Of a DNA stretch of 64,000 nucleotides, positions 1 to 25,751 are shown piece by piece. The position numbers and the translations under genes were made by a program. The notes beneath the pieces are model-generated. The model saw only the letters and a program-made list of their open reading frames with translations, was not told where the DNA came from and ran no database searches. This DNA is from Kineosporia sp. NBRC 101731 (lineage in GTDB: Bacteria > Actinomycetota > Actinomycetes > Actinomycetales > Kineosporiaceae), in NCBI RefSeq assembly GCF_030269305.1, contig NZ_BSTC01000006.1, positions 186,001 to 250,000 of the forward strand, written 5' to 3'. Every line of letters starts with the position of its first letter. Positions within the stretch are counted from its first letter, which is position 1.

Positions 1-557
1 AGTTCTGGTGTCAGTAGGACGTCGATGACGGCGTGGACGCGGGTGGTCGTGCTGGTGTTGCGGACGGAGTGCTCGCGGGAGAAGTCGCCGTACCAAAAGG
101 TTCCCGGCTGCCAGCAGTGCTCGACTCCGTCGAGCGTCAGCACCGCTTCGGGTGTCGTGACGATAGGGATGTGCAGGCGCATGAATCCTCGGTCGAGCTG
201 GTACTTCAGATCGCGGTGCGGGGCGATGACGGCTCCCGGTCCCAGGGCCATCAGTCGTGCTGCGTTGCGTGGAGAGGGAATTGATTCCAGCACCTGCGCC
301 AGGTACGGCAACTGTCCGAGCCAGAAGGTCGGCGCGAACGGTTCGCAGCCGGGTCCGCCTGGGTCGGTGCGCTCGGAGTCGCCGCCCGGGCTGTGCAGCG
401 GCAGGATGCGCCAGTCGATGGCGGCCGGTTTGCTGATTCCGTGGACGGTGTGCGAACGCTGAAGGTCCCACGTGTGGCCGGTGACGCCCGAGAGTTCGTC
501 CTGCAGACGGCGTGCATCGAGATCGAGAGTCAGCCGGGTCGCGGCGTAGGTACTCAT
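1..557 (-). CDS. Aspartyl/asparaginyl beta-hydroxylase-fold protein (partial, 3' end outside window)
   Basis: About 185 residues are visible; the reading frame runs off the left edge without a stop. The start is ATG at 557, with AGGAGG 5-6 bases upstream. The protein has the Fe(II)/2-oxoglutarate-type layout of the Asp/Asn beta-hydroxylase family (PF05118-like): a HRD (HxD) motif in IAPHRDLKYQ, the strand LHIPIVT, and a distal His in FSREHSVRN. It starts 24 bases after the ATP-grasp gene stop, so it is probably co-transcribed with that gene, the P450 and the MSYDH mini-gene. Inference: the central Asp of MSYDH is an attractive substrate for beta-hydroxylation. Family assignment is from motif recognition; the substrate is not shown by the sequence. 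Confidence 0.75.
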   Translation of the reverse strand, partial: MSTYAATRLTLDLDARRLQDELSGVTGHTWDLQRSHTVHGISKPAAIDWRILPLHSPGGDSERTDPGGPGCEPFAPTFWLGQLPYLAQVLESIPSPRNAARLMALGPGAVIAPHRDLKYQLDRGFMRLHIPIVTTPEAVLTLDGVEHCWQPGTFWYGDFSREHSVRNTSTTTRVHAVIDVLLTPE

Positions 558-581
558 GAATCCTCCTGATCTGAAGAGGGT

Positions 582-1991
582 TTACGACGAGAAGTTCAGC
601 ACAGTGGTTCCCACGTGCTGGCTGGGGTCGATCGCGTCGGCGGGGATCGCTGCGAAGCGTTCGTCGAGGCGCCCGAAGGACTCCTCGTAGCCGACGGCAG
701 GGTCGTAGGCGATGCAGAAGACGAACTGCACCGGCGCTCCTGGTGTCAGCGGAATGGCCGGCATGGACACGATCACTCCGGACCGGGTCACGTCGTCGTA
801 GCGCAGATCCAGGTCGTCCAGCGCAGTCAGGAACGTGTCGAAGCTGGGGACCACCCACGTGGGCGGGACGTGATACTCCACGACGCTGCGCCGAGGCTCG
901 GCGTTCACGTCAACGATCTGGTGGGCGATCGTCTGGTAGATGTGCAGCGACCCGGAGACCTGGGCGTTGACCTCGGTGAACACCACCTGGCCGTCGGGCA
1001 GCACCAGCGCATCGGCGCTGAGGTACCCGCGGTAGCCGAAGGCGCGGTACGCCTCGGCCAGGCGAGCGCCGCCGTCCAAGAGTGCGGTTCGGGTCTGCTC
1101 GGGCACGTCGGGAGACAGCGGCACGACCTGATGGCTCAGGCGGCGGGCCACGTAGATCAGGTGCCCTGTCTCTGTCGGGTGAGTGCCGTCGTCGGAGGCG
1201 TAGTGCTCGGAGTAGACCGCGGATGCGTTCACCGCGAACTCCTCGATGACCACGGGCCAGCGGCCGTTGGTGCTGGCCCAACTCCATCGCTCGCGCCAGT
1301 ACGCTTCGACACCGCTCGTTCCGGGCGCTAGATGGTGAAGGTGGCGTGCGCCGACGTGGTCCACGAGCAGGCGCGGGTCGCGGACCAGCAACTGGTTGCC
1401 GACGCCGGCGCCGTTGTGTGCCTGCTTCACCATGACGGCGCGATCGCCCGACCGTTCCAGCAGTGCGTTCGTGGCGGCCACGGCTTCGACCTGGCTTCGG
1501 CAGACCCGGCCGACGGGGATCCGGACTCCAGCTGCGGCGGCCAGTGCTCGAAAGTTGGCCTTGTTGTTGCCGAGCTCGCCTCCTCCCTGAGCGAAGAAGG
1601 CAGCGCCGGGAAACTGGGCGCTGATACCGATCGCGTCAGCGAACCGCGCTACCGATGCCGACGGCCACAGAGCAAAGATCTCGTCGACTGTCGCCGTTCC
1701 CGATGGCCCCAGCGTGGCCCGGACCTCTGCTATTAGATCGGGGTTTTCGAGAGACATCGGATCGAGGACCTTGTTGCCCCAAGTTCCAGCAGGAGCGACG
1801 ATGATGGTCAGTTCAGCACGAGGAACGCCGGTATGGACGAGGGCGTACTCGAGGAAACCGGCGTCAGGCTGGCAGCACAGCAGGATCAGGTCTCCCGGGT
1901 GAGCGAACCAGAGGACGCGTTGGGTCCAGGCCCTCATGTCCGTGCGTTCGCGGATCGACGGGTCGATGTGGTTGCCGATCAGGATTCTCAT
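582..1991 (-). CDS. PGM1-like ATP-grasp peptide ligase with pre-ATP-grasp domain
   Basis: The 469-residue protein has an N-terminal Rossmann-like pre-ATP-grasp part (about 1-140) followed by an ATP-grasp fold. Seen in the sequence: the nucleotide-binding Lys in VMVKQAHNGAGVGN, the hinge segment VVIEEF, and the metal-binding E-x-N in FTEVNAQVSGS. This layout resembles the peptide ligase PGM1 of pheganomycin biosynthesis, which joins an amino-acid-like cap to the N-terminus of a ribosomal peptide. The gene lies 38 bases downstream of the P450 and 24 bases upstream of the hydroxylase-like gene, all on one strand. Inference: it extends or caps the P450-crosslinked peptide made from MSYDH. An amino-acid ligase acting on another substrate is the main alternative. 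Confidence 0.8.
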   Translation of the reverse strand: MRILIGNHIDPSIRERTDMRAWTQRVLWFAHPGDLILLCCQPDAGFLEYALVHTGVPRAELTIIVAPAGTWGNKVLDPMSLENPDLIAEVRATLGPSGTATVDEIFALWPSASVARFADAIGISAQFPGAAFFAQGGGELGNNKANFRALAAAAGVRIPVGRVCRSQVEAVAATNALLERSGDRAVMVKQAHNGAGVGNQLLVRDPRLLVDHVGARHLHHLAPGTSGVEAYWRERWSWASTNGRWPVVIEEFAVNASAVYSEHYASDDGTHPTETGHLIYVARRLSHQVVPLSPDVPEQTRTALLDGGARLAEAYRAFGYRGYLSADALVLPDGQVVFTEVNAQVSGSLHIYQTIAHQIVDVNAEPRRSVVEYHVPPTWVVPSFDTFLTALDDLDLRYDDVTRSGVIVSMPAIPLTPGAPVQFVFCIAYDPAVGYEESFGRLDERFAAIPADAIDPSQHVGTTVLNFSS

Positions 1992-2029
1992 GGAGTCCCC
2001 AATAGCGCTGAAATCGATTCGAATTGAGA

Positions 2030-3193
2030 TCAGATGCGGAGTGCTGCCGGTAGGACGTCGAAGGCTCGCATCGTTGCTGTTGGACGCCGCTTCCCTGTGC
2101 TCACCGGCTCCAAATGGGCTGGATGGTCAGCGAGGGCAGAGATCAGCGCGCGCAATCCCGCGGCAGCGGCGGTCGTCCCGATACAGGCGTGGGTTCCCCA
2201 GCCGTACCCGAGGTGAGGATTCGGGGAGCGCTCAGGAAGGATACGGTCCGGCTCCGCGAAGGCATCCGGGTCGCGATTGGCCGCGACGAACAACGGAATA
2301 ATCTTCTGCCCTGGCGTGATCTGAACTCCACTGATGCGGGCAGAAACCAGCGCGACGCGAGTCGTTCCCTGCACTGGACCGTCGAACCGGACCAGTTCGT
2401 CAACGGCGGTGCCCAAGAGACCACCTTCTCGAAGCCCTTCCAGGATCTCAGGGTGAGCGAGAAGGACCCCGATGGAGTTGCCGATGGCCGCGGACATGGT
2501 GCTGTATCCACCCTGGAACATCACGCGGGCAGTGTTTTTCACGTACAGCTGGACGAGTTCTTTGTCATCGCTGGTCGCTCGACGAACCTGGGCCAGGAGC
2601 CCCGTACCTCGCTGCCCGGCGTACCAGCCATCGACCAGGTCGCTCAGTTCCTGGCGGGCCTTCCGCCCTGGCTCGATCAGAGCGGGGTTCAGTCCGCCGT
2701 CCATGCTGCGCATGATGGCGTCCGAAATCTCTGCGAACTCTTGGTACGGAGGGGTCTGCACCCCCAGTAGATCTCCCATCAACGACAGGGACAGGGGCAC
2801 CGCGAGCTCCGCGATGACGTCGAACTCGTCCCTGTCCGTGAGCTCGTCCAATCGCTGCTTGGCGAACCGGCGCGTGCGCTCCTCCATCGCCGACAAGGGC
2901 TGGGCGTGCAGGGCATTCATGAAAAGCGATCGGATGTAACCCTGCTCGGGAGGGTCGAGGGTCTGGACGCTCTGGCTTTCGGCCGGGACGTCTCGTCCGT
3001 TGCGACGCGGGTCGCGGGCGAAGGTCTGATGATCGCGAAGGACCCGGACGCAATCCGCGTACCGTGTCAGCACCCAAGACTGCATTCCCTCATGCCAGAA
3101 GACCGGAGTTTCGCGTCGCAGGTCGCTCAGGAGCGGGTAGGGGTTCGCCAAGGTGCTGGCGTCCAGCGGGTTGTACCGATCAACGACAAGCAC
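2030..3193 (-). CDS. Cytochrome P450, candidate biarylitide-type peptide cross-linking enzyme
   Basis: The chosen GTG start at 3193 sits behind GGGGAGG and gives 387 residues beginning VLVVDRYNPLD; the frame is open further upstream, but that part overlaps the MSYDH mini-gene and its leader. P450 signatures are the ExxR in DELVR and the heme-ligand loop GYGWGTHACIG. The I-helix reads QGGYSTMSAA, so the usual acidic residue of the acid-alcohol pair is replaced by Ser. The gene begins 83 bases after the stop of an 18-base gene encoding MSYDH, which is the layout of biarylitide loci, where a P450 joins the Tyr and His or Trp side chains of a pentapeptide M-x-Y-x-H/W. P450 assignment is secure; the peptide-cross-linking role rests on context. 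Confidence 0.88.
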   Translation of the reverse strand: MLVVDRYNPLDASTLANPYPLLSDLRRETPVFWHEGMQSWVLTRYADCVRVLRDHQTFARDPRRNGRDVPAESQSVQTLDPPEQGYIRSLFMNALHAQPLSAMEERTRRFAKQRLDELTDRDEFDVIAELAVPLSLSLMGDLLGVQTPPYQEFAEISDAIMRSMDGGLNPALIEPGRKARQELSDLVDGWYAGQRGTGLLAQVRRATSDDKELVQLYVKNTARVMFQGGYSTMSAAIGNSIGVLLAHPEILEGLREGGLLGTAVDELVRFDGPVQGTTRVALVSARISGVQITPGQKIIPLFVAANRDPDAFAEPDRILPERSPNPHLGYGWGTHACIGTTAAAAGLRALISALADHPAHLEPVSTGKRRPTATMRAFDVLPAALRI

Positions 3194-3276
3194 GGCTCGC
3201 CTCCCCGTGGATTTGGCTGATGTGGGCGGGGTTTCGCCCGGCCCGGAGATTGAGGCGCTCCGGGCCGGCCGCAGAA

Positions 3277-3294
3277 TCAGTGGTCGTAGGACAT
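3277..3294 (-). CDS. MSYDH pentapeptide mini-gene, candidate biarylitide-like RiPP precursor
   Basis: Six codons, ATG TCC TAC GAC CAC TGA, encode Met-Ser-Tyr-Asp-His. The start is preceded by GGAGGAGG at a 6-base spacing, the best Shine-Dalgarno in the locus, and the P450 gene follows after 83 bases. Known biarylitide precursors such as MRYYH have the pattern M-x-Y-x-H/W and lie directly before a P450 that cross-links positions 3 and 5; MSYDH fits that pattern. Its Asp at position 4 is unusual, and an Asp-hydroxylase-fold gene lies in the same run. A chance short frame is the alternative, but the strong ribosome site, the motif and the P450 agree with each other. Confidence 0.8.
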   Translation of the reverse strand: MSYDH

Positions 3295-3300
3295 CACGAA

Positions 3301-3309
3301 CCTCCTCCC
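3301..3309 (-). promoter_or_regulatory. Strong ribosome binding site of the MSYDH mini-gene
   Basis: On the minus strand this reads GGGAGGAGG, ending 6 bases before the ATG of MSYDH. A near-complete anti-16S complement in front of a five-residue frame is the main sign that the mini-gene is translated. The long in-frame extension of the P450 reading frame also crosses here, so this site decides between starts: it serves MSYDH, while the P450 has its own GGGGAGG before 3193. Confidence 0.75.
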
Positions 3310-3350
3310 GTCGAAGCAGAATCCTGAGGCGAGCGGCGGTCGAACCGGAC

Positions 3351-3397
3351 ACGAACTCGGCTCCGACGACAGCCTCACCAATCAGAGCCGAGTTCGT
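3351..3397. repeat. Perfect 13-base inverted repeat upstream of MSYDH
   Basis: Arms ACGAACTCGGCTC (3351-3363) and GAGCCGAGTTCGT (3385-3397) are exact complements around a 21-base loop. No T-run follows on either strand, so a simple terminator is unlikely. It lies about 55 bases upstream of the MSYDH start, where a leader hairpin or an operator for a dimeric regulator would be expected. Confidence 0.6.
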
Positions 3398-6270: not shown

Positions 6271-7989
6271 ATGTCGATACCCCAGGGAACAGGGACCGAG
6301 TCCGGCGCCGGTGACCAACTCGAGAATGCCGACGGGCGACTAACGTCCGCGCGTCAGCCCTCGTCCTGGGTCGCGCCTCCGGCTCTTACCGGCAGTGTTT
6401 CGCCGATCCGTATCTCCGCCGGCGCTATGGACCGTGTGGACCGAAGTTGCGATCTCTACTTGGCCGTCAAGGCACGCCCTGCCCTGTGGTCTCACGTGCC
6501 GCCGAGGCTGGAAAAGCAGCCGCTCCCTATCGGTGTCGTCATGGAGGTCTTGGACAAAATCGAGTTCAAGCATCAATCCGTGGAAGTAGCGCTTGCCGAA
6601 GTCTTCGAGCGAAAGTCCTTGCACGAAGGCGTGCACGTATTCGTCGCCAGCGCGGTCCAGAAGTACCTCGACGCGACCGGCAGCTCCGAGCAACTGCTGC
6701 CTGTGCATGACCAGTGGGTCGTTCAGCACCGCGATGCCGGCGTTAGGGAACTCTGGACCTGGGGCCGTCGCTACCGCTCCCGGGACGGAGGCACGCGGGA
6801 AGTCCGGCTCCTCCGGCAGGGGCGGGGTGGCACTCGTCAGCGAAGCGACGGCGAACGAGCAGTAGCCGCGTACACGACCGCCGTCGGCTCGCCCGCTCCT
6901 CAGCTCCGGTTCGGCCAGTGGCAGCAGAAATTTGCCGTGCGTGAGGCTGAGAACGTGAGCCAGGTCAAGGTAGTGGAGGTCGATCTGGTCGAGGGCACCC
7001 AGCATGTGTGGTTCACCGGATCAGTGGACGATGCGACGACCACGTACGATCATGCAGGGCGCTCTGCCGCTGGCCGACTGGCGTACGGCCACCATCGCGA
7101 ACCTGGAAAGTGTTTCGACTGTCGGCTGCTCACCTCATGCGACGAGGTCGTTCGGGCCCCTGGCCTCTTGGGAATTCGTTCTCAGGAACGCCTGCGGCAA
7201 GTGTCCATCAGCGATCTGCGCTACTACGCCAAGTGCCCAGCTCAGTACTTTCTCAGCAGTGCCGCACATCTTCCTCGTTTCAACGAGTACTCCATGGCAG
7301 CCCGGCTCGGGCAGGCCGTTCACGAGTACCTGGAAAACCGCCATCGCGAGGAGAACGGCCCGTGCCTGGCCGCGGACATGCCGACAACCCCAGGCTGGTC
7401 GGACGCTCGTTGGGACCTCGACTCACGAGCCGATGAAACCGGGCGGCGCATGCTCAGCCATCATCCCGAGGTCTGCCCCTTGAGGCGGGAAATTTCAGAC
7501 CTGACTCTCGAGAAGACCTTCATGCTGCACGACACGGTTGCTCAGGTACTCGTGGCGGCCAAGTGCGACCTCGTCTACCAGGACGACGGTTCATGGGTCT
7601 GGCGGGAGACAAAGACTACTAGCCGTGAGCAGGCTAGCGACGATGTCATTGCGGAATACCCGCAGGTCGCGCTCGCAGTCGGCATTCTCGGACGGGGGCT
7701 GCTCGGCGGTTTTGTTGAAGGATCGAGAGTCGAACTCGAGATCCTCCGTCCAACTCACTCTGACCTCATACCCATCGATCCGGCCGATACCGAGACTTTC
7801 GCGCAGGCCGAGGCGGTCATCAGAGACCTGGCAAGCCCTTGGCGAAGTGACTCATCCTTCGCTCCCACTCCGAGCCAAGATTGTCGGACCTGTCCTGTAA
7901 GCAAGTGGTGTCCGAGCGCGGAGGTTCCGGATCCGCCGAGCTTGTCCGAGGAGACCACACCCAGTGCCTACCGAAAGCCGAGCACCTGA
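6271..7989 (+). CDS. PD-(D/E)XK (RecB/Cas4-like) nuclease, first gene of the pPIWI-RE operon
   Basis: The 572-residue protein has two parts. The C-terminal half (about 305-555) is a RecB/AddB/Cas4-type nuclease: a Cys in DLRYYAKCPAQYF, the helix GQAVHEYLE, an acidic residue in AKCDLVYQD, the active-site WRETKTT, and C-x2-C-x5-C in CRTCPVSKWC; the four Cys suggest an Fe-S cluster. The N-terminal half ends in its own C-x2-C-x5-C (CFDCRLLTSC), hinting at a second, degenerate module. It overlaps the next gene by 26 bases, so translation is coupled. As an addition to the usual three pPIWI-RE genes it may process DNA ends. The exact start is uncertain. Confidence 0.8.
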   Translation: MSIPQGTGTESGAGDQLENADGRLTSARQPSSWVAPPALTGSVSPIRISAGAMDRVDRSCDLYLAVKARPALWSHVPPRLEKQPLPIGVVMEVLDKIEFKHQSVEVALAEVFERKSLHEGVHVFVASAVQKYLDATGSSEQLLPVHDQWVVQHRDAGVRELWTWGRRYRSRDGGTREVRLLRQGRGGTRQRSDGERAVAAYTTAVGSPAPQLRFGQWQQKFAVREAENVSQVKVVEVDLVEGTQHVWFTGSVDDATTTYDHAGRSAAGRLAYGHHREPGKCFDCRLLTSCDEVVRAPGLLGIRSQERLRQVSISDLRYYAKCPAQYFLSSAAHLPRFNEYSMAARLGQAVHEYLENRHREENGPCLAADMPTTPGWSDARWDLDSRADETGRRMLSHHPEVCPLRREISDLTLEKTFMLHDTVAQVLVAAKCDLVYQDDGSWVWRETKTTSREQASDDVIAEYPQVALAVGILGRGLLGGFVEGSRVELEILRPTHSDLIPIDPADTETFAQAEAVIRDLASPWRSDSSFAPTPSQDCRTCPVSKWCPSAEVPDPPSLSEETTPSAYRKPST

Positions 7990-9118
7990 CCTATCCGTCT
8001 TCACCGGCGTGATGCTGCTGCACATGGTCGCCACCGCGCTGGTAGAGCTATCGCGGCATAACCGCTCACCCGACCCCGTCTACTCGGACCGGGTTCTGAA
8101 GGCATACAACCACCTCGTGCTCCGCTGCCTTCAACAGCGGGTCGCACCTCCCTTCAGCGTCGCGGACATGTCGAGCTGGGCGACCAAGCGCTCCATCGGA
8201 CAATGGCCCTTCGACCTGCCCGCCGACGCGGAGAAGTTCGATGAGTTCCTCGTCGACCCGGAAACCGGTGTTCCCACACAGCTGTGTCGCGAATGGGAGG
8301 TGACCGCTCCTGACACGGCGGCGGAGATTTTCGAGAACGACATCATCCGTGAAGTCTTTGCCACCTGTCAGGCGGCCCGCTCTCCTCGTTCATACACGGC
8401 CTTCCGGCGCCTGCTGATCGAGCAGCCAGTCCTGTCCGGCCATGAGAAGGCCACGCTCCTGGGCACAAGGCCCGAACTGGGAGTGGTGATGGAAACGGTC
8501 AACCGCTGCTACGAGCCGGCACCGGCCGCCTACCGCGGTGATGATGGCCGGTTCGCCGTCTGCTCCCGCTGCAGCTGCTTGCTGAAACCTTCCGGATCGT
8601 CTTGGCGGTGTGAGCTGGACCGTTGTCGGCGAGAGGGGAGCGCAACGCCGGGTCGGCTTCTCGACGGCCGGGAGACCAACGGCATCTACCAGCTGAGGGC
8701 ACCATTACGAACCTTCATTACCGGACCGGGGATCGCCGAGATCGACTTGGAGAAGAAGCTGATCGCTAAAGGTCTCATCCCCGAGATGTGGCCGGGCTGT
8801 GACGCTTACGACCTCAGAATCACTCTCCCTGATCGCCAAGTCTGGGCGATCGATGTCAAGGATCGCGCCAATCCCGCTTTACTGGGCAACACCGCCACTG
8901 TGTTCAGGCCCGACCCGCCGTACAACCACGCGTTCCTTGTCGTCCCCCAGTATCGATTCGACGACCGCGACGGCTATCGGATCACTTTCAATCACTACTG
9001 CCCACCCGAGGTCAAGGATCGTGTGACTCTCCTCAGCGACAGAGCCTTCCTCAGGAAACTGTCCAACAGGTTGACCCAGTTGAAGAAGATCTCCGAGGGG
9101 GGCCTGAGAGATGCGTGA
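7964..9118 (+). CDS. pPIWI-RE system restriction-endonuclease subunit (Y domain plus REase)
   Basis: The GTG start overlaps the previous gene; the protein has 384 residues. The N-terminal about 190 residues are helical and match the position of the pPIWI_RE_Y module. A zinc-ribbon-like set follows (CSRCSC ... CELDRC, about 199-220). The C-terminal REase has a PD-(D/E)XK core, YDLRITLP ... WAIDVKD (about 281-297). In the pPIWI-RE systems described by Burroughs, Iyer and Aravind, such a REase is encoded with a DinG-type helicase and the pPIWI-RE protein, as here. It overlaps the helicase start by 8 bases. Role: the likely DNA-cutting effector of the defence system. Confidence 0.78.
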   Translation: MPTESRAPDLSVFTGVMLLHMVATALVELSRHNRSPDPVYSDRVLKAYNHLVLRCLQQRVAPPFSVADMSSWATKRSIGQWPFDLPADAEKFDEFLVDPETGVPTQLCREWEVTAPDTAAEIFENDIIREVFATCQAARSPRSYTAFRRLLIEQPVLSGHEKATLLGTRPELGVVMETVNRCYEPAPAAYRGDDGRFAVCSRCSCLLKPSGSSWRCELDRCRREGSATPGRLLDGRETNGIYQLRAPLRTFITGPGIAEIDLEKKLIAKGLIPEMWPGCDAYDLRITLPDRQVWAIDVKDRANPALLGNTATVFRPDPPYNHAFLVVPQYRFDDRDGYRITFNHYCPPEVKDRVTLLSDRAFLRKLSNRLTQLKKISEGGLRDA

Positions 9119-12100
9119 CCGCAGCAGCTGGCACCAGGAGCTCTCTGGCGAGCTCAACGAGGTATGGGAAACACGAGCAGGTTTCAACGTCGGAGACATG
9201 CTGGACATCGAGCTGGCCCTGTTCCTCGGAATTACCGTCCTCCCGAAGCGGCCGGTCGGCGACTTCTGGACGCTACTCAGCGGCTATCCCTACGAAGAAG
9301 TCTTCGGGGATGTTCGTACCGCCGAAGCCCGCATGATGATCCGCCGCGGGCGCCACTTTCTCTGGGACCGGAGCCGCCGTTACGCCTGGCGAAACGCGCT
9401 GAGCGCCTATCTCGATGTCGACATACGGCTGCGTCAGTACGCTTTCGACAGCGTCGACGATCTACCACGCAAGCTGCAACCGGCCCGGGCTCACGACCGC
9501 GAAACGACCTACCTCCGGCTACTTACCGAAGCACCGCCTGTCGAAAAGCGGAGTCTTCCCATCGCAGGATCAGGCGATCACATCTTCCACGTGCGCGACC
9601 AGCGCCACTCAGTTCACATTCCAACTGAGCTGCTCGACATCGAACCACTGGTAGGGCACCCTCTCGACGACATGCCGTTGGGCGGTGGCGAACCGATCAC
9701 TGTGACCATCGCAGAACTCGAAGATGCCGCCAGCGCAATGGACGAAGCCGAGTCCAAAACTAATGGCAAGAAGAATGATTGGGCTCGAAGGCTCAAGCGA
9801 GTCGAGGTTCTCATGCGGGACGAGCAGGCACAGACGTTCCGCTCCCAGCCTCAGCTACGCATCGAGCACCTCATGAACATGGTGGGCATGGTCGGCGCTG
9901 GCAAGTCGACAGTTCGCGACATCCTGGCCTACCACCTTGCGAAGCACCCCAAGAGGGAACAGCGGCGCAGGACGACCATCGTCGTAGGGGATGTGGCCGA
10001 GGTCCTCACAATTACCGAGCAGTTTCGGCGCCTTGGGGTGAAAGCATCCCCCGTACTGGGGCAATCGACGCTGGAACGAAATATTCATCGCGTCCATAGG
10101 CGCAGTGAGTCCCCGACCCAGACCATGCTGAATCACAACAGCCCCGGTTTCGAGCATCTTTCGAGCGCCTGCCCTCTCGATGCCCTACGGGGTTTCGAGG
10201 CTCGACGCTCCCTCCCCATCAATGCAGCTCCCTGCACAGGCCTATACACAGCCGAGGCGGTTGAGGAAGAGGAGCAGCGACGCGAGGCTCTCGCGAAGGC
10301 TGAGCCGACACCGGGAAGGAAGAGGCGAAGGGTGCGTAAGGCGAAGCGCCACGGCTGCCCGCTGTGGTCCGCGTGCCCACGCCACAGCGCCTCTCGCAGT
10401 TTGGTGGAGGCACAGATCTGGGTCGCTACGCCGGCATCTCTTGTGCACAGTCGAGTGCCAAATCACCTGAACGGCGAGAATCTTAGATACCTCGAACTTG
10501 CCTGCCGAAGAAGCGATCTCATCATCGTGGATGAAGCAGACCGCGTTCAGATGCAGCTCGATTCAGCTTTCGCACCAGCAGCAACGCTGGTGGCCCGAGG
10601 GACTGAGTCATGGCTGGACGAGGTCGGAAAACACAAACTCACGGAGTTGGCCAACCAAGGTCGGTTGCAGCTCTCGAGCGCCGAGATCGATGACTGGACC
10701 AACTCGCTCAACACCGTGATCTCGGCAACCGACCGCATCTACTCGATGTTGATCAACAACGGCCCCCTCCGGCGCTGGATAGTCCAGGATTACTTCAGCG
10801 CGGTCACCATGCATCAATGGCTCCTCAATGAGTGGTTTCCCGAACAGCGAAAGGCGCGCAAGGAAAGCCATTCCACTGGAGCCGAGGTCGACGAGGTCCC
10901 GCAAGGCTCCGATCGGGAACAGCTCCTGCGGGTGGGAAACATCTTGGACCGCTTCCGGGACGCCCCCCTTACGCCACAGCGGGCCAGGGAACCAGACGAT
11001 ACGGACGTGGATCTGGTCAACGCTCTCGTAGCGATGGCGGCCGAGCTTCTGCACATCACCCGTGGCGCTGCCCGGGAATTCCAACGGGAACGGCTTCAGA
11101 AGCTTCTCCAAGAACTTGTCCCGGACAACCCTTCTGTCGCGGGCGATCTCGACGCAAACCTGTACCGGTTCGAGTTCACCCTACTTCTCGCGGTCCTCCA
11201 TGACCGCCTCGACCATGTCACCACGTTCTGGCCCCGAGTCGAGGCTGCGCTCAACCTCGAATCCACCTCGAACGCTCTATCTCGTCGGCCTCCACGCGAC
11301 TACATGCCGGTGGTCCCCGAATCGCCTATGGGTAACGTCTTGGGTTTCCAGTTCCAGGCCGGCGACCGTAACGAAGAGGGCGACCAGAGCGGCGAGCTTC
11401 GCTTCTTCCGGTGTAACGGGGTCGGACGCGAATTACTGCTGGAACTCAACAACATTCCCCGGGTCGACAACCGTCCTGGCCCTAACGTCCTGCTGATGTC
11501 GGCCACCAGCTGGGCCGGTACATCGAGCCGTTACCAGATCCACGCCCAAGTCGATGCGATCTTGCGCCCCCATGAGAGCGAAGTGGAGGCTATCAAGGAG
11601 AGTACCTTCCAGACTCTCTTCCTGACCAAGCCCGGGAGTTCCACCGCCTTGCGCCTCTCCGGGGCAAGCCCGGAGGAACGTCCCAAGGAGCTGGAACAGA
11701 TGCTTCACCAGCTCGCTGTTCCCGATCGCAGCTTGGCCGCAACCAAATCGCTTCTGCAACAGGAATTAGACGACATTGAGGACCCTCAACGCCGCCGCAT
11801 TCTTCTGCTTGTCGGGAGCTATGCAGAGGCTCAGCAGGCCGGGCACTTCCTCAATCGACAGCACGAATGGACCGGCAACGTAACAATTTTGGTGTCGGAC
11901 GATACGGATCTCGACCATTCATGGTCGAACCTACCGACCGAGACAGGCCAGCTCTATCTCCGCCGAGGCGAACTCACTCAGTTCCCCGACATCGGAGGGC
12001 AACTGCTCATCGCTCCGTTGCTGGCAGTGGAGCGAGGCCACAACATCGTCGTGCCCGGTGGAAAGGCAGCCATCGGCAGTGTCTACTTCCTTGCCCGACC

Positions 12101-12596
12101 GCACCATCGGCCCGATGATATTGCCCTCGCTACCCAGTCGATCAACGACTGGGCTGTCCGACAGGTCCGAGGACCCGAGCGCCACTTTGCCCAATCCGCC
12201 CTTGCCACGGCCAGTCCAGACCAAGCCGGCCGCAAGTTCCGTGCCGCCGCGGCCAAGAAGTGGCATCGATTCCTTACTCGTCGGATGTCCTGGACCAGCC
12301 TGCCGGACACAGAGAAGTCCGCCTTCACCTGGGATCAGCTCGTCGTCATTTGGCAAGTCATCGGCCGTCTCGTCCGTGGAGGGGTCGCGGCGCGCGTCTA
12401 CTTTGTCGACGGTGCCTTTTCCCCACGTGAAGCTCGACTTTCCGGGGAAGATACTCCGGCCACCAGCCTCCTACTGAGCATGCTCGAGGAGCTGAAGCCG
12501 TACTTCGATCCAGAGTCAACGAAGAGTCCTATCGATCGTTCACTGGTCAACGCCTTGTACGACCCGCTCTACCGCGCACTCAACGACATGGTCTAA
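9111..12596 (+). CDS. DinG-type Fe-S helicase of the pPIWI-RE system
   Basis: The 1161-residue protein starts inside the REase stop region. It has a Walker A motif GMVGAGKST (about 260), a DEAD-like Walker B motif IIVDEADRV (about 470), and a motif-VI-like VIGRLVRGG (about 1082). Between motifs I and II lie four well-placed Cys (SACPLD, APCTGL, HGCPLWSACP), the pattern of the Fe-S cluster in XPD/DinG helicases. The N-terminal about 240 residues precede the motor and correspond in position to the pPIWI_RE_Z module. It is expected to unwind or translocate on DNA for the Argonaute-like partner. The helicase assignment is firm; the detailed role is inferred from the operon. Confidence 0.82.
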   Translation: MRDRSSWHQELSGELNEVWETRAGFNVGDMLDIELALFLGITVLPKRPVGDFWTLLSGYPYEEVFGDVRTAEARMMIRRGRHFLWDRSRRYAWRNALSAYLDVDIRLRQYAFDSVDDLPRKLQPARAHDRETTYLRLLTEAPPVEKRSLPIAGSGDHIFHVRDQRHSVHIPTELLDIEPLVGHPLDDMPLGGGEPITVTIAELEDAASAMDEAESKTNGKKNDWARRLKRVEVLMRDEQAQTFRSQPQLRIEHLMNMVGMVGAGKSTVRDILAYHLAKHPKREQRRRTTIVVGDVAEVLTITEQFRRLGVKASPVLGQSTLERNIHRVHRRSESPTQTMLNHNSPGFEHLSSACPLDALRGFEARRSLPINAAPCTGLYTAEAVEEEEQRREALAKAEPTPGRKRRRVRKAKRHGCPLWSACPRHSASRSLVEAQIWVATPASLVHSRVPNHLNGENLRYLELACRRSDLIIVDEADRVQMQLDSAFAPAATLVARGTESWLDEVGKHKLTELANQGRLQLSSAEIDDWTNSLNTVISATDRIYSMLINNGPLRRWIVQDYFSAVTMHQWLLNEWFPEQRKARKESHSTGAEVDEVPQGSDREQLLRVGNILDRFRDAPLTPQRAREPDDTDVDLVNALVAMAAELLHITRGAAREFQRERLQKLLQELVPDNPSVAGDLDANLYRFEFTLLLAVLHDRLDHVTTFWPRVEAALNLESTSNALSRRPPRDYMPVVPESPMGNVLGFQFQAGDRNEEGDQSGELRFFRCNGVGRELLLELNNIPRVDNRPGPNVLLMSATSWAGTSSRYQIHAQVDAILRPHESEVEAIKESTFQTLFLTKPGSSTALRLSGASPEERPKELEQMLHQLAVPDRSLAATKSLLQQELDDIEDPQRRRILLLVGSYAEAQQAGHFLNRQHEWTGNVTILVSDDTDLDHSWSNLPTETGQLYLRRGELTQFPDIGGQLLIAPLLAVERGHNIVVPGGKAAIGSVYFLARPHHRPDDIALATQSINDWAVRQVRGPERHFAQSALATASPDQAGRKFRAAAAKKWHRFLTRRMSWTSLPDTEKSAFTWDQLVVIWQVIGRLVRGGVAARVYFVDGAFSPREARLSGEDTPATSLLLSMLEELKPYFDPESTKSPIDRSLVNALYDPLYRALNDMV

Positions 12597-12627
12597 GTCC
12601 GAAACCTCATCGCTCAGAGAGGCACTC

Positions 12628-15468
12628 ATGCGGTACGACTACACACAGCCCGCAGCGTTCGTCGCGGATCGCGAGCTCGTCCTGCCCCTTCAGACGTTGT
12701 CCTTCCCCACTTCTTGGCGTCGGCCGATCCTCGACCTGTTTACCGCGGGCTGGAGCGAAGAGTGGCGTGCACGCGCTAAACAGGTTCCCTTGCAACGGTT
12801 GAACGCACTTCTGCGAGCAGCGGCACCGGACCTTGTTTCCACGGCAACCCGCGCTCAGCTTGGCGAGGAACACCCCTGGCTGTTCGCTTCAGCGGCATTC
12901 CCTGAACCGGTACTCGCTACTTTCATTAACGCCTGGCTCCATGACCTGCCAAAGAGTGAGGAGGGCAAAGCCCTTGTTCTGCCGACGATAGATCGTCTTA
13001 ACTCAGCAGGCACACTCCAGTGGGAACCCCGATCGATCAGCCTCACTGAACGCACGCTCTCCGCCGGCGGAACTCCGGTTCCGGAGCGGCATCTCTTCAG
13101 TCTGCTCCCTGACTATGCAGCAAGTCTTATCGCCGGATCCGCCTACGAGCATCACAATGGCAGTGTCCAGTTTCACCAGACGGCTCTCAACCCCGCCAAT
13201 GGGTATGCGGAGCTGATCTCCTGGCCACCCTTGCAGCACCACACTGGGCGAGGCGTTAATCAGACTACTTGGTACTACAGCGCGACAATCAAAATTGGCT
13301 TGCGAACAACACCTTTCGATCCGGCGATGAGACTGCACGTGCACACCGGCATTCGTCGTTGGACTCTGGGTGAAGTTCGTACGCGGGGACGCTACGGAGC
13401 ATCGACCTACATGCTGTCCAGCAACCCGTTCGTCGCCGGAGCTCCGATCCCGCAGAGATTTGCTGTTGCTCAACTGCTCTGGAACAAGCAGTCCAAGGAC
13501 ATGGGCTGGAAGCAGGGAGGGGTTGGACAGATCCTTCCGCGCGTAGGTGCCTTGGAGTATCTCCCCGCTCCCGATCAGCTTGCCCACAAGTCGGAAGCCT
13601 GGATCTACGGCCGCGACGGAGTTACTGCTGCGGTCACTTACCACACGACCATGAAGGGGCGGAGTCACCCGGTGGGGCCAGGACTCATGCCCGCGGAGCG
13701 CAGCAGGCTCACGTCATGGATCGGGCGCTGCTTGGAACCCAGCTTTAGGCTCGACGAGCCCCTCGTCCGGGTTATGCCAGCTGGTAAAGGAATTCAGTCG
13801 TTCACGAAACTCAAGTCGGTACCTAAGACCAAGGCTTCCATGACCGATAGCGAGATTGAGGAGGTGACCTCTCGCCAGGCAGATGTGCGCGCGATGAACG
13901 CCACCATCGCACAGGGAAATGCCAGGATGAGGAGGCAGCAACTGGCCGAGGCTGTCGGCGGAACGCTTGGCGTCGTGTTGCTCTTCCAGGGCGAGGGCGA
14001 CGGCATGCAGAGTCGACTACTCGGCACCGTCCAGAGGCTGTTGGACCTCCCCGCCCGGACCGCCAGCGGGCGCGGCTCCTGGACTTGGTCTGTCGACGGT
14101 TTCACGCTCAACGTACACTCGCGACCACTCGGCCAACTGGGTGGTCCGCTCGGCGATGGGACGACTCCCCAAAAGGGCAAGAAGCACGACGAGCAGATCA
14201 AGATCCGACGTGGTGTTGTCGCCTCGACTGTTGCTCAGATCGCCGAGGAGGCGGGCGATACGCCCCAGCTCGTTCTCGTCGAGCTTGATGGACGGGACGA
14301 CTTCGATAAGCGAACGACCGACCCAAAGTTCGCTGTTCGCATCGGCTGTGCCGATGCTGGCATGGTCAGCCAGTTCGTCCAACCGGATAAGGTCGACGAG
14401 GAAGATCCGAAAGCCGCCGACGAAAACAACAATCTTCGGGCTGAAGCGGCTTGGTTGGACGGCTTTCGGCAACTGGGTGAGCGATTCATCCCGCGACACC
14501 GTCTCGGTGACGAAGTGCCAGAATCTCTCCACCAGTTGGCATTCTGGGTCGTCAAGCGACGCAACGATGACACGAACAGTCATCAGGTCTTTGCCCCAAT
14601 CGCTGTTCTTATTAAGCCTGACGAGAAGTGCGTAATGGGCAAGACCAGCGACATGGATGAATGGGTTCCTTACCCTGAACTCCTCAAGCGGCTTGCTGGT
14701 GCTCATTTTCATGCTGCGCGAGCGAATGAAGACCAACAGAAGGAACAGCTTGCTGCCTTCATTCGCAGAACTTTGACCAGCCTGCGGAGCACCGAAACTT
14801 TGGTCGTGACAGAGACACATAACATTCGCTACCGACTGCCGACCATGCTGAACTCGGACATGATTCCGGACCGTCTGCAGCTCGCCGGCCTGAAACCCCA
14901 ACGGATCACTGCTTTCGGGAAGAAGCTGAGACTCGTCAGGGTCGGTGGTAACGATCGCCTGGAGACGCCGCAAGCGTGGGCCTACGCAGATGAACGCATC
15001 GGGATCTCCGACGGGCTCTGGCAAAGGGCAAGCGGAGGAGAGGCTGACGATGGCTCTAGGGTCTTCTACAGCACTGTTGATAAGCCGGGGACTCATAACA
15101 AGGTCAGAGTCGACCATTCCAAGCTCACACCGCACTACCAGGAGAAGGCGGAGTCCGGCGTCGACGGTGCTGAGAGTGAGGCCCGAAACCATTTGGATCC
15201 CTCTAAAAACGCTTGGAATGCCGAACTTCTCGAGATTGTCGTAGTGGCTAAACCCGATGCCGAGAAGGCCTCTACGTGGGCGACTTTCCTTCATCAGCAA
15301 CGTCACTGCTCGGACGACTACCGGGAATCTCTTGGTAGGCCACTGATCTTGCATCTGGCTCGGCTGACCAATCAGTACGCGCTGCCTGCGGACGACACAA
15401 TCGAAGATGATGGAGAGGAAGACGAGGAGGAGTCGGATCCAGAGGTGCAGCTTGAACTGGACATCTGA
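12628..15468 (+). CDS. pPIWI-RE protein (prokaryotic Argonaute-like, RNase H-fold PIWI)
   Basis: The ATG is preceded by GAGAGG. The 946-residue protein matches the pPIWI-RE layout: an N-terminal X-type module (about 1-370), a middle MID-like part, and a C-terminal RNase-H-fold PIWI part containing QLVLVELDGRDD, FAVRIGCADAG and THNIRYRLP, where the family-defining Arg/Glu pair is expected. The extreme C-terminus is strongly acidic. The family is predicted to bind an RNA-DNA hybrid or guide and to work with the neighbouring REase and DinG helicase in conflict with phage or plasmids. The call rests on overall resemblance and on the adjacent REase and helicase genes; domain borders are approximate. 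Confidence 0.8.
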   Translation: MRYDYTQPAAFVADRELVLPLQTLSFPTSWRRPILDLFTAGWSEEWRARAKQVPLQRLNALLRAAAPDLVSTATRAQLGEEHPWLFASAAFPEPVLATFINAWLHDLPKSEEGKALVLPTIDRLNSAGTLQWEPRSISLTERTLSAGGTPVPERHLFSLLPDYAASLIAGSAYEHHNGSVQFHQTALNPANGYAELISWPPLQHHTGRGVNQTTWYYSATIKIGLRTTPFDPAMRLHVHTGIRRWTLGEVRTRGRYGASTYMLSSNPFVAGAPIPQRFAVAQLLWNKQSKDMGWKQGGVGQILPRVGALEYLPAPDQLAHKSEAWIYGRDGVTAAVTYHTTMKGRSHPVGPGLMPAERSRLTSWIGRCLEPSFRLDEPLVRVMPAGKGIQSFTKLKSVPKTKASMTDSEIEEVTSRQADVRAMNATIAQGNARMRRQQLAEAVGGTLGVVLLFQGEGDGMQSRLLGTVQRLLDLPARTASGRGSWTWSVDGFTLNVHSRPLGQLGGPLGDGTTPQKGKKHDEQIKIRRGVVASTVAQIAEEAGDTPQLVLVELDGRDDFDKRTTDPKFAVRIGCADAGMVSQFVQPDKVDEEDPKAADENNNLRAEAAWLDGFRQLGERFIPRHRLGDEVPESLHQLAFWVVKRRNDDTNSHQVFAPIAVLIKPDEKCVMGKTSDMDEWVPYPELLKRLAGAHFHAARANEDQQKEQLAAFIRRTLTSLRSTETLVVTETHNIRYRLPTMLNSDMIPDRLQLAGLKPQRITAFGKKLRLVRVGGNDRLETPQAWAYADERIGISDGLWQRASGGEADDGSRVFYSTVDKPGTHNKVRVDHSKLTPHYQEKAESGVDGAESEARNHLDPSKNAWNAELLEIVVVAKPDAEKASTWATFLHQQRHCSDDYRESLGRPLILHLARLTNQYALPADDTIEDDGEEDEEESDPEVQLELDI

Positions 15469-15658: not shown

Positions 15659-17128
15659 TCAAATCGCAAGACCAAGCGTTTCATGGAGCTGCCTAACCTT
15701 CGCAACTGTCGCCCGAAGCTGTTCCAGCTCAGCGAGTTCGGCCTCACGCTCCTGGCTAGTCTGGGGCTCGGTCACAGGCCGGGCGCCATGCCGCATGACC
15801 GCCAACGCGTCGAGGGCTGTCTCGTCAGCGTTCGGCAGAGTGTGCAGGTACCGCTCGGTCGTGCTGATCGACGCGTGCCCGAGCCGTTCCTTCACCACCT
15901 GCAGATCAGCCCCGCCGGCCAACAGCCATGAAGCGTGAGCGTGGCGCAGTCCGTGCGGCGTCACATGAAAGCCGAGCTCGGCCTTGGCGAGCGCCTTCAT
16001 CCAGATGTTCGTCCGGAACCACCCGCGGCCGATGTGCCCGTCGGTGGCCACCGCCCGCGGCTTCCGCGGAGCATCTTTCCCTCCGGCTCGACGCTGCGCC
16101 CGGTACGCCGCGACGGCGTCCTTGCAGTACTGGCATCGGCACTTGCCCGGGCCGTAAGCGGACGTGGTGCCGTGGAGGAAGGTGCGTCCCTGAGCATTCG
16201 GCTCGGTCCGCCCGAGGGTCTCGGGATCGGGGAGGACTTCCGGCCGGCTCCGTCGGGCGGTAGTGGCCTCGGGCGCTTCAAAGAGCAGGTCGTCGGCTCC
16301 GACCCCTCGCGCCTCGATGTGTAGGGCGATCTTGTCCACGAGGTGCTGGCTGAGCTTGAACGACCGGTACTCCTGGTCCTTCGGGTAAGCCTTGACGATG
16401 AAGCGCTGACCGTCGGGCCGGTCCTTGGATGTCAGCTCGGTGACAGCCCGCGAGACGACGAGCATCCTGGTCTGCAGGTCGAGGTCCTTGGGCCGGAGTT
16501 CGGTCAGCTCGCCCCAGCGGAGCCCCGACTCGATGTCGGTCTCGACCAGCAGACGCATCGTCTCGCCAGGCAGGGCGAGGTGCACGCGGTCGTACATCTC
16601 CGGAGTCAGGATGCGGCGCGGCCGGGTCGGGACCGGCGGGGTCTTCACTCCACGGCCAGGGTGGACCGGAACGATCTGATCGTTGAACGCCGTCGTGAAG
16701 ATGGCGTCCACGATCACCTTGCACTTGGCGATCGTGGCAGGGGACGCGCCGTAGTCCTGCCCCTGGAGGGTCGTGATCCACGCCCGGAGGTCACTGGAGA
16801 GAATCTCCTGCATCCGCATCGTCCCGAGCTCAGGGATCACATAGAGGTCGAGCCGGTTCCGGTAGGTCTCGCGGGTGCTGGCCTCGATGACGTGGTTGGG
16901 GAACCACTGGGTCTCGACGTAGGCCTCCAGGGTCTGCCGACCCCGGCGGGGATCGCCGACCTGTGCCGCAGCGGTGCTGTTCTCCGCAGCGTTCCCGGCG
17001 CGCTCCGCCGCCCGGTAGGAGGAGAAGGTGCCGGCCACCCGACGGCGGTTCCTCTTATCACGGTAGCGAGCCGTGTAGGTGATCTTCCCGCTCCGGCCGA
17101 CTCGTTCCTCAACCCACGCCATGCTCAT
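15659..17128 (-). CDS. Tyrosine recombinase (integrase) of the genomic island
   Basis: The start is ATG at 17,128, or 17,122; about 489 residues. Domains in order: an N-terminal arm-binding motif ([19 protein letters not shown]), a SAM-like core-binding domain (about 80-180), and a catalytic domain with Arg in [18 protein letters not shown] (H-x-x-R), His in ERLGHAS, and the nucleophile Tyr in TTERYLHTL. An insertion before the HxxR motif contains CRCQYC in an HGT ... [16 protein letters not shown] segment, probably zinc-binding. The gene reads away from the tRNA-derived attachment site 150 bases upstream, as is usual for actinobacterial integrative elements. It would catalyse site-specific integration and excision. 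Confidence 0.92.
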
Positions 17129-17280
17129 CCCTAAGATCGGCCTGGGGGCAATTTGGGGGCAGACGCTGCCGGACTCCTCCGAATGGGACCGGACGCCTGC
17201 GAACCAGAAATGCCCTATGACCTGCACTTTATCAATCTGGATGATCGCGGGCCGAAGAGCTGGAAGACGTCGGAACCGCG

Positions 17281-17369: not shown

Positions 17370-19163
17370 TCAGTCCGGACGGGGCACCAGCCGGCCCAGG
17401 AAGGCCAGCACCGCCTCGTTGAACGCGTCGGCCTGCTCGAAGGGCAGGAAGTGCGCGGACTCCGGGACCACGGTCAGCTCGGCCCCCGGAACCCGGGCGG
17501 CGACGTCCTCCGCCAGCTGCACCGACACCAGGGTGTCCTTGGCACCGTGCAGCACCAGGGTCGGGCAGGTGATCGTGGCCAGCGCCGGGCCGGCGTCGTA
17601 CCGCACCCCGGCCAGGCTGAGCTGGCAGAAGCTGTCCGGGTCCTGCGTGGTGAGCCGGAAGAACGTCTTCAGCTTGTCCAGGGCGATCCGGTTGTCGTCG
17701 ATGTAGCCGGGGGTGAAGAGGTGCTCCAGGCAGGTCTCGAGCAGTTCCTCCATGCCCCGGGTGCGGGCCAGCTCGCGCCAGGCGGCGGTGGTCTGCTGGA
17801 TCTGCTCGTCGGCCTGGGCGTAGGCCGAGGTCAGGACGAGCCCGGTGACCAGGTCCGGGCGCCGGGCCGCGACCTCGGCGGCCACGGCCGCGCCGAGGGC
17901 CACACCGGCCAGGTGCGCCGGTCCGATCCCGGTGCTCTCGAGCAGCTCGATCAGGTCGTCGGCGAGCAGTTGCACCGAGGTGCCGTCCGGGCTGGGCGTG
18001 CTGATCCCCGTGCCGCGGGCGTCAAAGGTGATGACGCGGTAGCCGGCCTGCCGGAACGGTGCCACCTGGCGGGCCCAGAAGCTGGAGTCGCCCCCGAGCG
18101 GGCTGAGCAGCACGATCACCGGGGCCTGGGCCGGGTCCACCCCGTCGGCCGTCTCCGAGCGCCAGAACAGCTTCGCCCCGTTGATGTCGGCGCGTGGTTG
18201 TTTCGGCTTGCCGAAGAGGTGGTCGAGGACCTGGGGCACCAGGGAGCCCGGTGAGTTCTCCAGCCGGCGGATCACCGGTGCCGGGTCGTAGTTGCGCATC
18301 CCTCCGGGGATGAAAGTCTTCGCGTAGCGGTACATCACCGGATCGAACTGGGTGGTGTGGGGGATCGACCGCACGTGCCGCCGATCCAGCAGCAGGATCG
18401 CGGTCTCGGTGGCCACCAGCGACGCGGCGAGCCCGCAGGCGCACGAGAGCGAGGGGCCGGTGCCGGCCGAGAAGTCGGTGTTCGACTCGGGGCGGGACAC
18501 GTCGTAGTACTCGATCTGGGCCAGCTCCGGGACGATCCCGCAGGCGTACCGCATCTGCATCTCCAGCGGGTCCATGTCCGGCTCGATCCCGCAGTACTCC
18601 TCCAGACCCATCCCCTCCGGGTCGAACACCTGGAGGCAGGCGCTGAACCCGATCGGCGAGCCCATCAGCGTGAACAGCCCGTGCTCGCGGGTCTTCTGGT
18701 GCAGCGCGACGTGCGTGGTGATGCTGTAGAAATCGACCGCGTCGATGGCCACGTCGGCACCGCGGAAGAGACCGTCGGCCGTGGTGTCGGTGAAACCCTC
18801 GGGAAAGACCTCGATCCGGGCGAGCGGATTGATCCGGTGGATCTCCTCCGCGATCACCTCCACCTTCAGCCGCCCGACCGTCTCGGTGCTCGCCCCGTAC
18901 TGCCGGTTGATGTTCGCCAGCTCGAACCGGTCGAAGTCGGCCAGCCGGAACCCACCGACACCCAGCCGGGCGAGCATCACCGCGACGTTGCCGCCGATCC
19001 CGCCCAGGCCGGCGATCGCGACGGTGCTCGCGCCCAGCCGCTCCTGCTCACCGCCGGTGAGGATCCCCTGGTTCCGGCTGAACGACCGGGCGTACACGGT
19101 GTCTGCGTCCAGATCCTGCAAGTCCTGCCGGTCCTGGACGCCGGTCTCGGGGCGCACGCTCAT
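17370..19163 (-). CDS. ThiF/E1-like adenylyltransferase fused to an alpha/beta-hydrolase lacking its nucleophile
   Basis: The 597-residue fusion has a ThiF/MoeB-type domain at about 25-290, with the nucleotide loop GLGGIGGN (52-59), ADFDRFELANINRQ (75-88) and AIDAVD. From about 345 to 597 there is an alpha/beta-hydrolase fold with the acid in HGAKD (542) and the His in PESAHFLPF (570). The expected G-x-S-x-G elbow reads GVALG, so the nucleophilic Ser is Ala421. E1-like enzymes adenylate carboxyl groups of peptides or carrier proteins, for example MccB. As the last gene of the biosynthetic run, it may activate a product carboxylate, with the dead hydrolase acting as a binding or cyclising scaffold. 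Confidence 0.82.
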   Translation of the reverse strand: MSVRPETGVQDRQDLQDLDADTVYARSFSRNQGILTGGEQERLGASTVAIAGLGGIGGNVAVMLARLGVGGFRLADFDRFELANINRQYGASTETVGRLKVEVIAEEIHRINPLARIEVFPEGFTDTTADGLFRGADVAIDAVDFYSITTHVALHQKTREHGLFTLMGSPIGFSACLQVFDPEGMGLEEYCGIEPDMDPLEMQMRYACGIVPELAQIEYYDVSRPESNTDFSAGTGPSLSCACGLAASLVATETAILLLDRRHVRSIPHTTQFDPVMYRYAKTFIPGGMRNYDPAPVIRRLENSPGSLVPQVLDHLFGKPKQPRADINGAKLFWRSETADGVDPAQAPVIVLLSPLGGDSSFWARQVAPFRQAGYRVITFDARGTGISTPSPDGTSVQLLADDLIELLESTGIGPAHLAGVALGAAVAAEVAARRPDLVTGLVLTSAYAQADEQIQQTTAAWRELARTRGMEELLETCLEHLFTPGYIDDNRIALDKLKTFFRLTTQDPDSFCQLSLAGVRYDAGPALATITCPTLVLHGAKDTLVSVQLAEDVAARVPGAELTVVPESAHFLPFEQADAFNEAVLAFLGRLVPRPD

Positions 19164-19219
19164 ACTGGTCCTCCTGGCTGGCCGTGATGGACGGGATAGC
19201 TGTGGGAGAGAGCGGATGT

Positions 19220-23458: not shown

Positions 23459-23487
23459 GAGCGTGTCTCCTCACCGAATCGTGGGCC

Positions 23488-24447: not shown

Positions 24448-24450
24448 CCC

Positions 24451-25737: not shown

Positions 25738-25751
25738 TCGGGTCCCCTTGA

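Follow-up and report, generated by a model that had tools for sequence, protein, structure and literature searches.

A conserved gene run joining a biarylitide-type YDH minigene and P450 to PGM1- and LAL-type ATP-grasp ligases in Kineosporia sp. NBRC 101731

The 64,000-nucleotide stretch of Kineosporia sp. NBRC 101731 analysed here (contig NZ_BSTC01000006.1; G000:C6:186001-250000; hereafter the window) starts inside a gene cluster for a putative ribosomally synthesized and post-translationally modified peptide (RiPP). The cluster comprises an 18-base minigene encoding MSYDH, genes for a cytochrome P450, a PGM1-like ATP-grasp ligase and an oxygenase of the Asp/Asn beta-hydroxylase fold, and, beyond the window start, genes for an amidinotransferase, a second ATP-grasp protein and a kinase. 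We lean, with modest confidence, towards reading this locus as a biarylitide-type RiPP cassette that has been combined with ligation chemistry of the pheganomycin type, all chemical steps of which are predicted from sequence. Directly observed are the precursor and its conservation, the families of the enzymes, the gene order and the co-occurrence of the genes. The genes are:

3277..3294, minus strand: precursor minigene MSYDH, bytA-type, 18 bases including the stop codon, with the strong Shine-Dalgarno sequence GGGAGGAGG
2030..3193, minus strand: cytochrome P450, bytO-type (RufO/P450Blt-type), GTG start at 3193 with its own GGGGAGG site
582..1991, minus strand: PGM1-like ATP-grasp peptide ligase, 469 aa (PreAtp-grasp, PF18604; match to the PGM1 structure)
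1..557, minus strand: first 185 aa of a PF05118 Asp/Asn beta-hydroxylase-fold 2-oxoglutarate (2OG)-type oxygenase (AspH), 330 aa; full gene G000:C6:185565-186557
C6:184429-185574, minus strand, outside the window: amidinotransferase, 381 aa
C6:183188-184429, minus strand, outside the window: L-amino-acid ligase (LAL)-type ATP-grasp protein (LAL_C2 domain), 413 aa
C6:182218-183204, plus strand, convergent, outside the window: APH-family kinase (PF01636), 328 aa

Among the AspH, amidinotransferase and LAL genes of this genome, the end of each gene overlaps the start of the next, and the three are read as one operon. The window end was considered as the end of the cluster and rejected, as the gene run carries on past the window start. 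An initial annotation of the window had listed minigene, P450, PGM1-like and AspH-fold genes in this order; the order and the four genes were confirmed, but the set was incomplete, since the amidinotransferase, the LAL-type ATP-grasp and the kinase are conserved as well.

The minigene (ATG TCC TAC GAC CAC TGA) is preceded by GGGAGGAGG as ribosome-binding site and is separated by 83 bases from the P450 start (GTG 3193, minus strand). It has the form of a biarylitide precursor gene, i.e. 18 bases encoding MxYx(H/Y/W) with a ribosome-binding site. In the whole window, a Shine-Dalgarno word precedes only this one minigene of the form MxYx[H/W/Y]-stop, and 200 mononucleotide shuffles averaged 0.0; it is thus not a chance match. 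Furthermore, [M/V]xYDH was present in 30/30 related loci (29 distinct), 70-134 bases ahead of the start of the P450 tblastn match. Position 2 of these precursors is S, T, F or G, while Y, D and H are invariant. Over 29 loci, the per-base identity was 97-100% for the Y, D and H codons and 66-83% for the second codon, with 62% in the Shine-Dalgarno region, 46% farther upstream and 53% downstream. Conservation and shuffle control thus bear out the earlier proposal of an 18-base, biarylitide-patterned gene with a strong Shine-Dalgarno sequence, and the frame is kept beside related P450s, which the initial annotation had named as one of two points on which its proposal could fail.

The P450 matches the Pfam p450 model (8.3e-17) and keeps the heme Cys. 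In a single-sequence search of the PDB, its best matches were RufO entries (3.6e-78) and P450Blt (1.8e-76); a profile search gave 2.9e-100 for RufO, 1.9e-94 for P450Blt and ~1e-84 for 9jvj and 9jv0, after which, beyond the top ten entries, the E value jumps to 2.9e-50. Among these ten entries, identities were established only for 8SPP, 9DUJ and 9EBY (RufO) and 8U2M (P450Blt) (PMC12186263). A tree of 85 P450 rows places all 35 rows from YDH loci in a single clade (100/98), with one branch for the 30 cassettes (100/100) and another for five further loci, the second group (100/99); the P450s of MRYAY loci branch next, and L034, L130 and L135 were flagged for long branches. The I-helix reads FQGGYST in 30/30 cassette P450s and FNAS[YF] in 5/5 second-group P450s, and LHAGY in 4/5 P450 rows with non-Asp YxH cores. 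The P450 adjoining the minigene therefore groups with RufO and P450Blt, among the biarylitide P450s, as had been predicted for a biarylitide-type enzyme downstream of MSYDH.

The PGM1-like protein has a PreAtp-grasp domain (Pfam, 4.6e-23), and its profile matches the PGM1 structure 3wvq with an E value of 1.9e-95, so its assignment as a PGM1-like ATP-grasp ligase stands. The amidinotransferase is a homologue of the AGAT/StrB family; D210, H257 and C366, which we take to be its catalytic-type residues, are invariant in 13 aligned rows. Amidinotransferase and PGM1 occur together in 30/30 cassettes and in the same three of five second-group loci, and neither was found in the other two; all 33 PGM1-bearing YDH loci hold the amidinotransferase. 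From this joint presence or absence we infer that the amidinotransferase makes the acid used by PGM1. PGM1 of the pheganomycin pathway attaches a guanidino acid to a peptide N-terminus (PMC8359417, PMC8939145), and capping of the peptide N-terminus by the PGM1 homologue is plausible here, being favoured by the conserved amidinotransferase.

The cassettes were assembled by several searches. A plasmid search with PGM1 returned 13 records; of the best five, four (54-72% identity) hold the whole run and the fifth is a pheganomycin-type cluster. A scan of genome contigs with a PGM1 alignment gave 25 loci. L010 (Kineosporia babensis) corresponds to the same-genus genome G001, with identical contig coordinates. 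The locus is patchy, as PGM1 was found in 2/6 genomes of the genus and 2/13 of the family. L033 (contig end), L004 (same contig coordinates as L010, the two being counted as one record) and L009 (pheganomycin type) were dropped, and the 30 non-redundant cassettes consist of 29 distinct loci and L163. By tblastn, PGM1, LAL and amidinotransferase are present in all 30, AspH in 28 (missing in L026 and L034), the kinase in 29 (in L029, the contig ends first) and a methyltransferase in eight. Weak rows were kept, namely L031 (PGM1 and AspH matches in pieces), L024 (AspH match ending at residue 270), L019 (partial kinase) and L029.

A pattern search independent of the tailoring genes was made in 392 genomes of Streptomyces, the genus of G409 (Streptomyces echinoruber). 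ATGNNNTAYGAYCAYTRA was found in 18/392 genomes and the reversed control pattern in one. Thirteen of the 18 matches adjoin a biarylitide-group P450 and one (G773) a P450 remnant, which was excluded from the intact loci. Three others were rejected as precursors because they overlap a gene start ATGACCACTGA, and MAYDH in G864 was rejected because, in spite of its ribosome-binding site, no P450 match lies within 16 kb. Besides this, 20 of the 33 loci from a P450 search (L129-L161) were dropped because the pattern revealed no minigene in the 700 upstream bases; a second scan with a wider pattern, limited to the upstream side, covered L140 and L145 of these 20, which may therefore contain other minigenes, though a five-residue, ATG-started YDH minigene would have surfaced in the Streptomyces pattern search.

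The final comparison sets 35 intact YDH loci against 11 with a different core, absence being defined as no tblastn match at 1e-8 passing the coverage filter (within stretches of 13-16 kb for the 11 non-YDH loci). The LAL-type ATP-grasp is present in 35/35 YDH loci versus 0/11 loci with other cores, PGM1 in 33/35 versus 0/11, the kinase in 29/35 versus 0/11, the amidinotransferase in 33/35 versus 1/11 (L096, MRYVH) and AspH in 28/35 versus 5/11. Three of the non-Asp loci (L087, L096, L097) were found through an AspH search, which biases this set towards AspH; the other eight came from the P450 search.

The second YDH group consists of five loci from the Streptomyces genomes. In L131 and L132, the precursor upstream of the P450 is MRYDHCL, in which two residues extend the YDH core at the C-terminus, and it is accompanied by genes for the P450, an MFS-like transporter, LAL, PGM1 and a distant amidinotransferase (27-28% identity to that of the cassette). 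In L130, MTYDH lies 27 bases past PGM1 and ~1.7 kb ahead of the P450; according to PMC13417212, separated bytA and bytO are unique to the MRYWY clade; L130 may thus be a further case of such separation. In L129 and L135/L197, MSYDH lies after the P450, and LAL is present, whereas their genomes gave no PGM1 match. Genomes G850 and G1018 have MSYDH and the P450, and no PGM1 match at 1e-20 was found in either whole genome; PGM1 as sole partner of Asp4 was therefore rejected, a LAL-type ATP-grasp being present there instead. L130 and L197 further carry related alpha/beta hydrolases (68% identical), and that of L197 scores 294 bits against the prolyl aminopeptidase model TIGR01249 (cut-off 260), which makes this protein a candidate leader peptidase; the biarylitides characterised so far have no dedicated protease in the cluster (PMC12951456).

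The LAL ATP-grasp of the Kineosporia genome has a LAL_C2 domain, and its nearest structures are 3vot and BacD. Five LAL proteins were scanned and showed LAL_C2 or other ATP-grasp domains; among four proteins of the second group, that of L131 has no LAL_C2 match and that of L129 is 0.1 bit below the cut-off. In a midpoint-rooted tree (with a long-branch warning and three proteins entered twice), cassette and second-group LAL proteins separate at 100/100, which fits two recruitments beside the YDH P450 and does not prove them. Asp4 follows the LAL ligase, but inside one P450 clade, and the association may therefore be one event. The convergent APH-type kinase (PF01636) has D222 and D244, presumably catalytic-type Asp residues, invariant in 20 rows; its PDB search gave one match, with an E value of 0.94. 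Judging from its family, it most likely serves self-protection. A scan of amidinotransferase and kinase against NCBIfam gave no matches.

The favoured pathway would run as follows. The ribosome makes MSYDH, the P450 would join Tyr3 and His5, and a host peptidase would remove the MS leader. The amidinotransferase would convert an amino acid and arginine into an N-amidino (guanidino) carboxylic acid, which PGM1 would activate and attach to the Y-D-H macrocycle at its freed N-terminus. The LAL-type ATP-grasp may form another amide, on the side chain of Asp4 or at the C-terminus, or may build a dipeptide that PGM1 transfers. The PF05118 oxygenase would place a hydroxyl group on the peptide, not necessarily at Asp4, or on the building block that is added, and the kinase would protect the host.

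Several observations weigh against this pathway. All YDH P450s being one clade, the co-occurrence counts are not independent events. Moreover, the amidinotransferase family is common to pheganomycin-type clusters and not confined to them. Its search gave matches in 16/394 genomes of the class, of which eight stretches were examined (L055-L062). L055 is a cassette, taken as the same contig as L031. L058, L059 and L060 have dpgA, and relatives at 57-60% identity lie in dpgA clusters, with PGM1 as well in L009, L059 and L060, as in pheganomycin; neither dpgA nor PGM1 accompanies the relatives in L056 (64%), L057 (59%), L061 and L062 (both ~44%). The amidinotransferase of L056, the closest one sampled outside biarylitide loci, lies in 18 kb with no other query genes and sits inside the cassette clade of the tree, on a long branch; L057, and also L096 with its MRYVH precursor, have the enzyme and no PGM1, so amidination can serve other pathways. 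Furthermore, no arylglycine genes were seen in the four annotated plasmid cassettes, and MFS and prolyl aminopeptidase gave no tblastn match in the 30 cassettes with one query each, other transporters and proteases not having been searched. As a separate observation, L057 and L058 each have two amidinotransferase genes ~3 kb apart in the genome, and L057 also has two weak P450 matches.

AspH was considered in another role in the initial annotation, according to which it would beta-hydroxylate the central Asp of the Y-D-H ring, with PGM1 capping the N-terminus. We regard this as rather unlikely. The protein is indeed of the Asp/Asn beta-hydroxylase fold (Pfam Asp_Arg_Hydrox, 4.5e-18), with the iron-ligand pattern H114-x-D116...H163 of PF05118 2OG oxygenases invariant in the aligned rows, and Pfam, motif and structure model agree with the earlier family assignment. 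Its presence in 28/30 YDH cassettes and the 42% AspH relative on another contig of the L026 genome also fit hydroxylation of Asp. Against this, AspH relatives adjoin the precursors MRYVH, MRYLH and MRYAY, none with Asp, in 5/11 non-Asp loci (2/8 if only P450-search loci are counted), and the AspH proteins of L087 and L133 (MRYAY) belong to a supported group nearest to cassette AspH (99/98). Conversely, YDH is kept in L026, L034 and all five second-group loci, where tblastn found no AspH beside the P450, and the L034 genome gave no match at 1e-10. Asp4 therefore does not follow AspH, and AspH as the explanation of Asp4 was rejected on co-occurrence. In addition, the best PDB matches of AspH by sequence and by fold are proline hydroxylases: its model (mean pLDDT 87.9) is closest to proline cis-4-hydroxylase, with only part aligning, followed by a hydroxylase from the biosynthesis of a nucleoside antibiotic, then by proline 3-hydroxylase and human AspH. 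As far as the model goes, the substrate cannot be read from the fold. In L084, L093, L094 and L095, an AspH relative and a LAL-type ATP-grasp lie 1-2 kb apart with no P450 match in the stretch, possibly as a separate hydroxylation-ligation module.

A more far-reaching version of the ligation pathway, which we put forward tentatively and consider doubtful, is a mobile antibiotic-type cassette making a doubly ligated hybrid, with a guanidino acid placed at the N-terminus by PGM1, a further unit placed on the Asp4 side chain by LAL, and protection by the kinase. Ligation on that side chain would explain why Asp4 never varies, and an amino-acid ligase may then have been recruited twice beside the YDH P450.

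It is improbable that the pathway resembles that of rufomycin, in which case a P450-modified residue would be freed from the pentapeptide and then amidinated, after which the two ATP-grasp enzymes would incorporate it into a small peptide, and no macrocycle would be the product. RufO is among the closest solved P450s, an amidinotransferase with two amino-acid ligases constitutes a non-ribosomal toolkit, and the FQGGYST I-helix is unlike the LHAGY of most non-Asp YxH rows. However, Asp4 and His5 are invariant in 30 loci, although release of one Tyr needs neither, and no nitric oxide synthase was noticed among the neighbours scanned or annotated, a dedicated search not having been made. Hardly any weight can be given to a regulatory role of the minigene as an upstream reading frame, with a small molecule as substrate of the P450: the minigene does lie in the leader region directly before the P450 in cassettes, but it follows the P450 in L129 and L135/L197 and precedes it by ~1.7 kb in L130, its sequence being constant while its position varies, two genomes carry MRYDHCL, and experimental proof exists for such precursor-P450 pairs in other systems (PMC13417212, PMC12951456).

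The initial annotation knew of no described pathway with this set of tailoring enzymes; the claim of novelty does not stand. PMC13417212 (July 2026) reports 277 biarylitide clusters, 47 of which pair a Pgm1 homologue with Asp at position 4, as well as the sav cluster of Saccharothrix variisporea (MRYVH) with AspH and amidinotransferase. The 47 clusters share with the present locus an Asp4 pentapeptide-type precursor, a biarylitide P450 and a PGM1-type ligase. For this group, the text of PMC13417212, apart from its Table S1 of co-clustered genes, names Pgm1 alone; here the amidinotransferase, the LAL ligase, AspH and the kinase are conserved parts of YDH cassettes. The sav cluster shares the precursor, P450, amidinotransferase (savT) and Asp/Asn hydroxylase-like protein (savH), but differs in its YVH core, in having two tailoring enzymes only and in lacking PGM1; L096 resembles this type. 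Only cross-linked YVH without further modification was isolated from it, and the sav product is suspected in PMC13417212 to be an incomplete intermediate. No activity is reported for this YVH biarylitide or from earlier assays of biarylitides; possible plant effects of related peptides are mentioned there (PMC13417212). The pheganomycin pathway (PMC8939145, PMC8359417) shares the PGM1 ligase, a related amidinotransferase and the combination of ribosomal peptide and guanidino acid; the pheganomycin-type L009 differs in its annotated pheganomycin-family precursor, dpgA-C and radical SAM methyltransferase, and gave no P450 match. Myxarylin (PMC12951456) shares the minimal precursor and the Tyr-His cross-link followed by leader removal and N-terminal tailoring, the latter being N-methylation and not ligation; the term ATP-grasp is absent from the main text of that paper. 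ATP-grasp genes near some bytAO pairs were noted already (PMC9113118). No paper describing the whole gene set was found in a literature search that did not cover Table S1 of PMC13417212, subscription papers or the mining work by Zdouc et al. and by Nam et al.

The surrounding DNA contains a four-gene pPIWI-RE defence island near the cassette (window 6271-15468, plus strand; PprPDDEXK, PprRE, PprDinG, PprPIWI). A TrwC-type relaxase and a ThsB-like TIR gene lie beyond the kinase side (L002:3716-9621) and a tyrosine integrase on the opposite side (window 15659-17227), which suggests that the cassette lies within a mobile element. A second peptide-modification-like locus (window 17370-27557, minus strand) holds a ThiF/hydrolase fusion, a peptidase-like protein (named by eye), a HemN-like radical SAM protein and a PapB-like radical SAM/SPASM protein.

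The distribution of AspH argues against an Asp-specific reading of the hydroxylase. Four plasmid records carry the seven conserved genes, a resistance-type kinase among them, which suggests that the end products of this branch may be larger, amidinated and bioactive, and the cassette allows one to ask whether two stand-alone ligases act on a ribosomal peptide of this small size.

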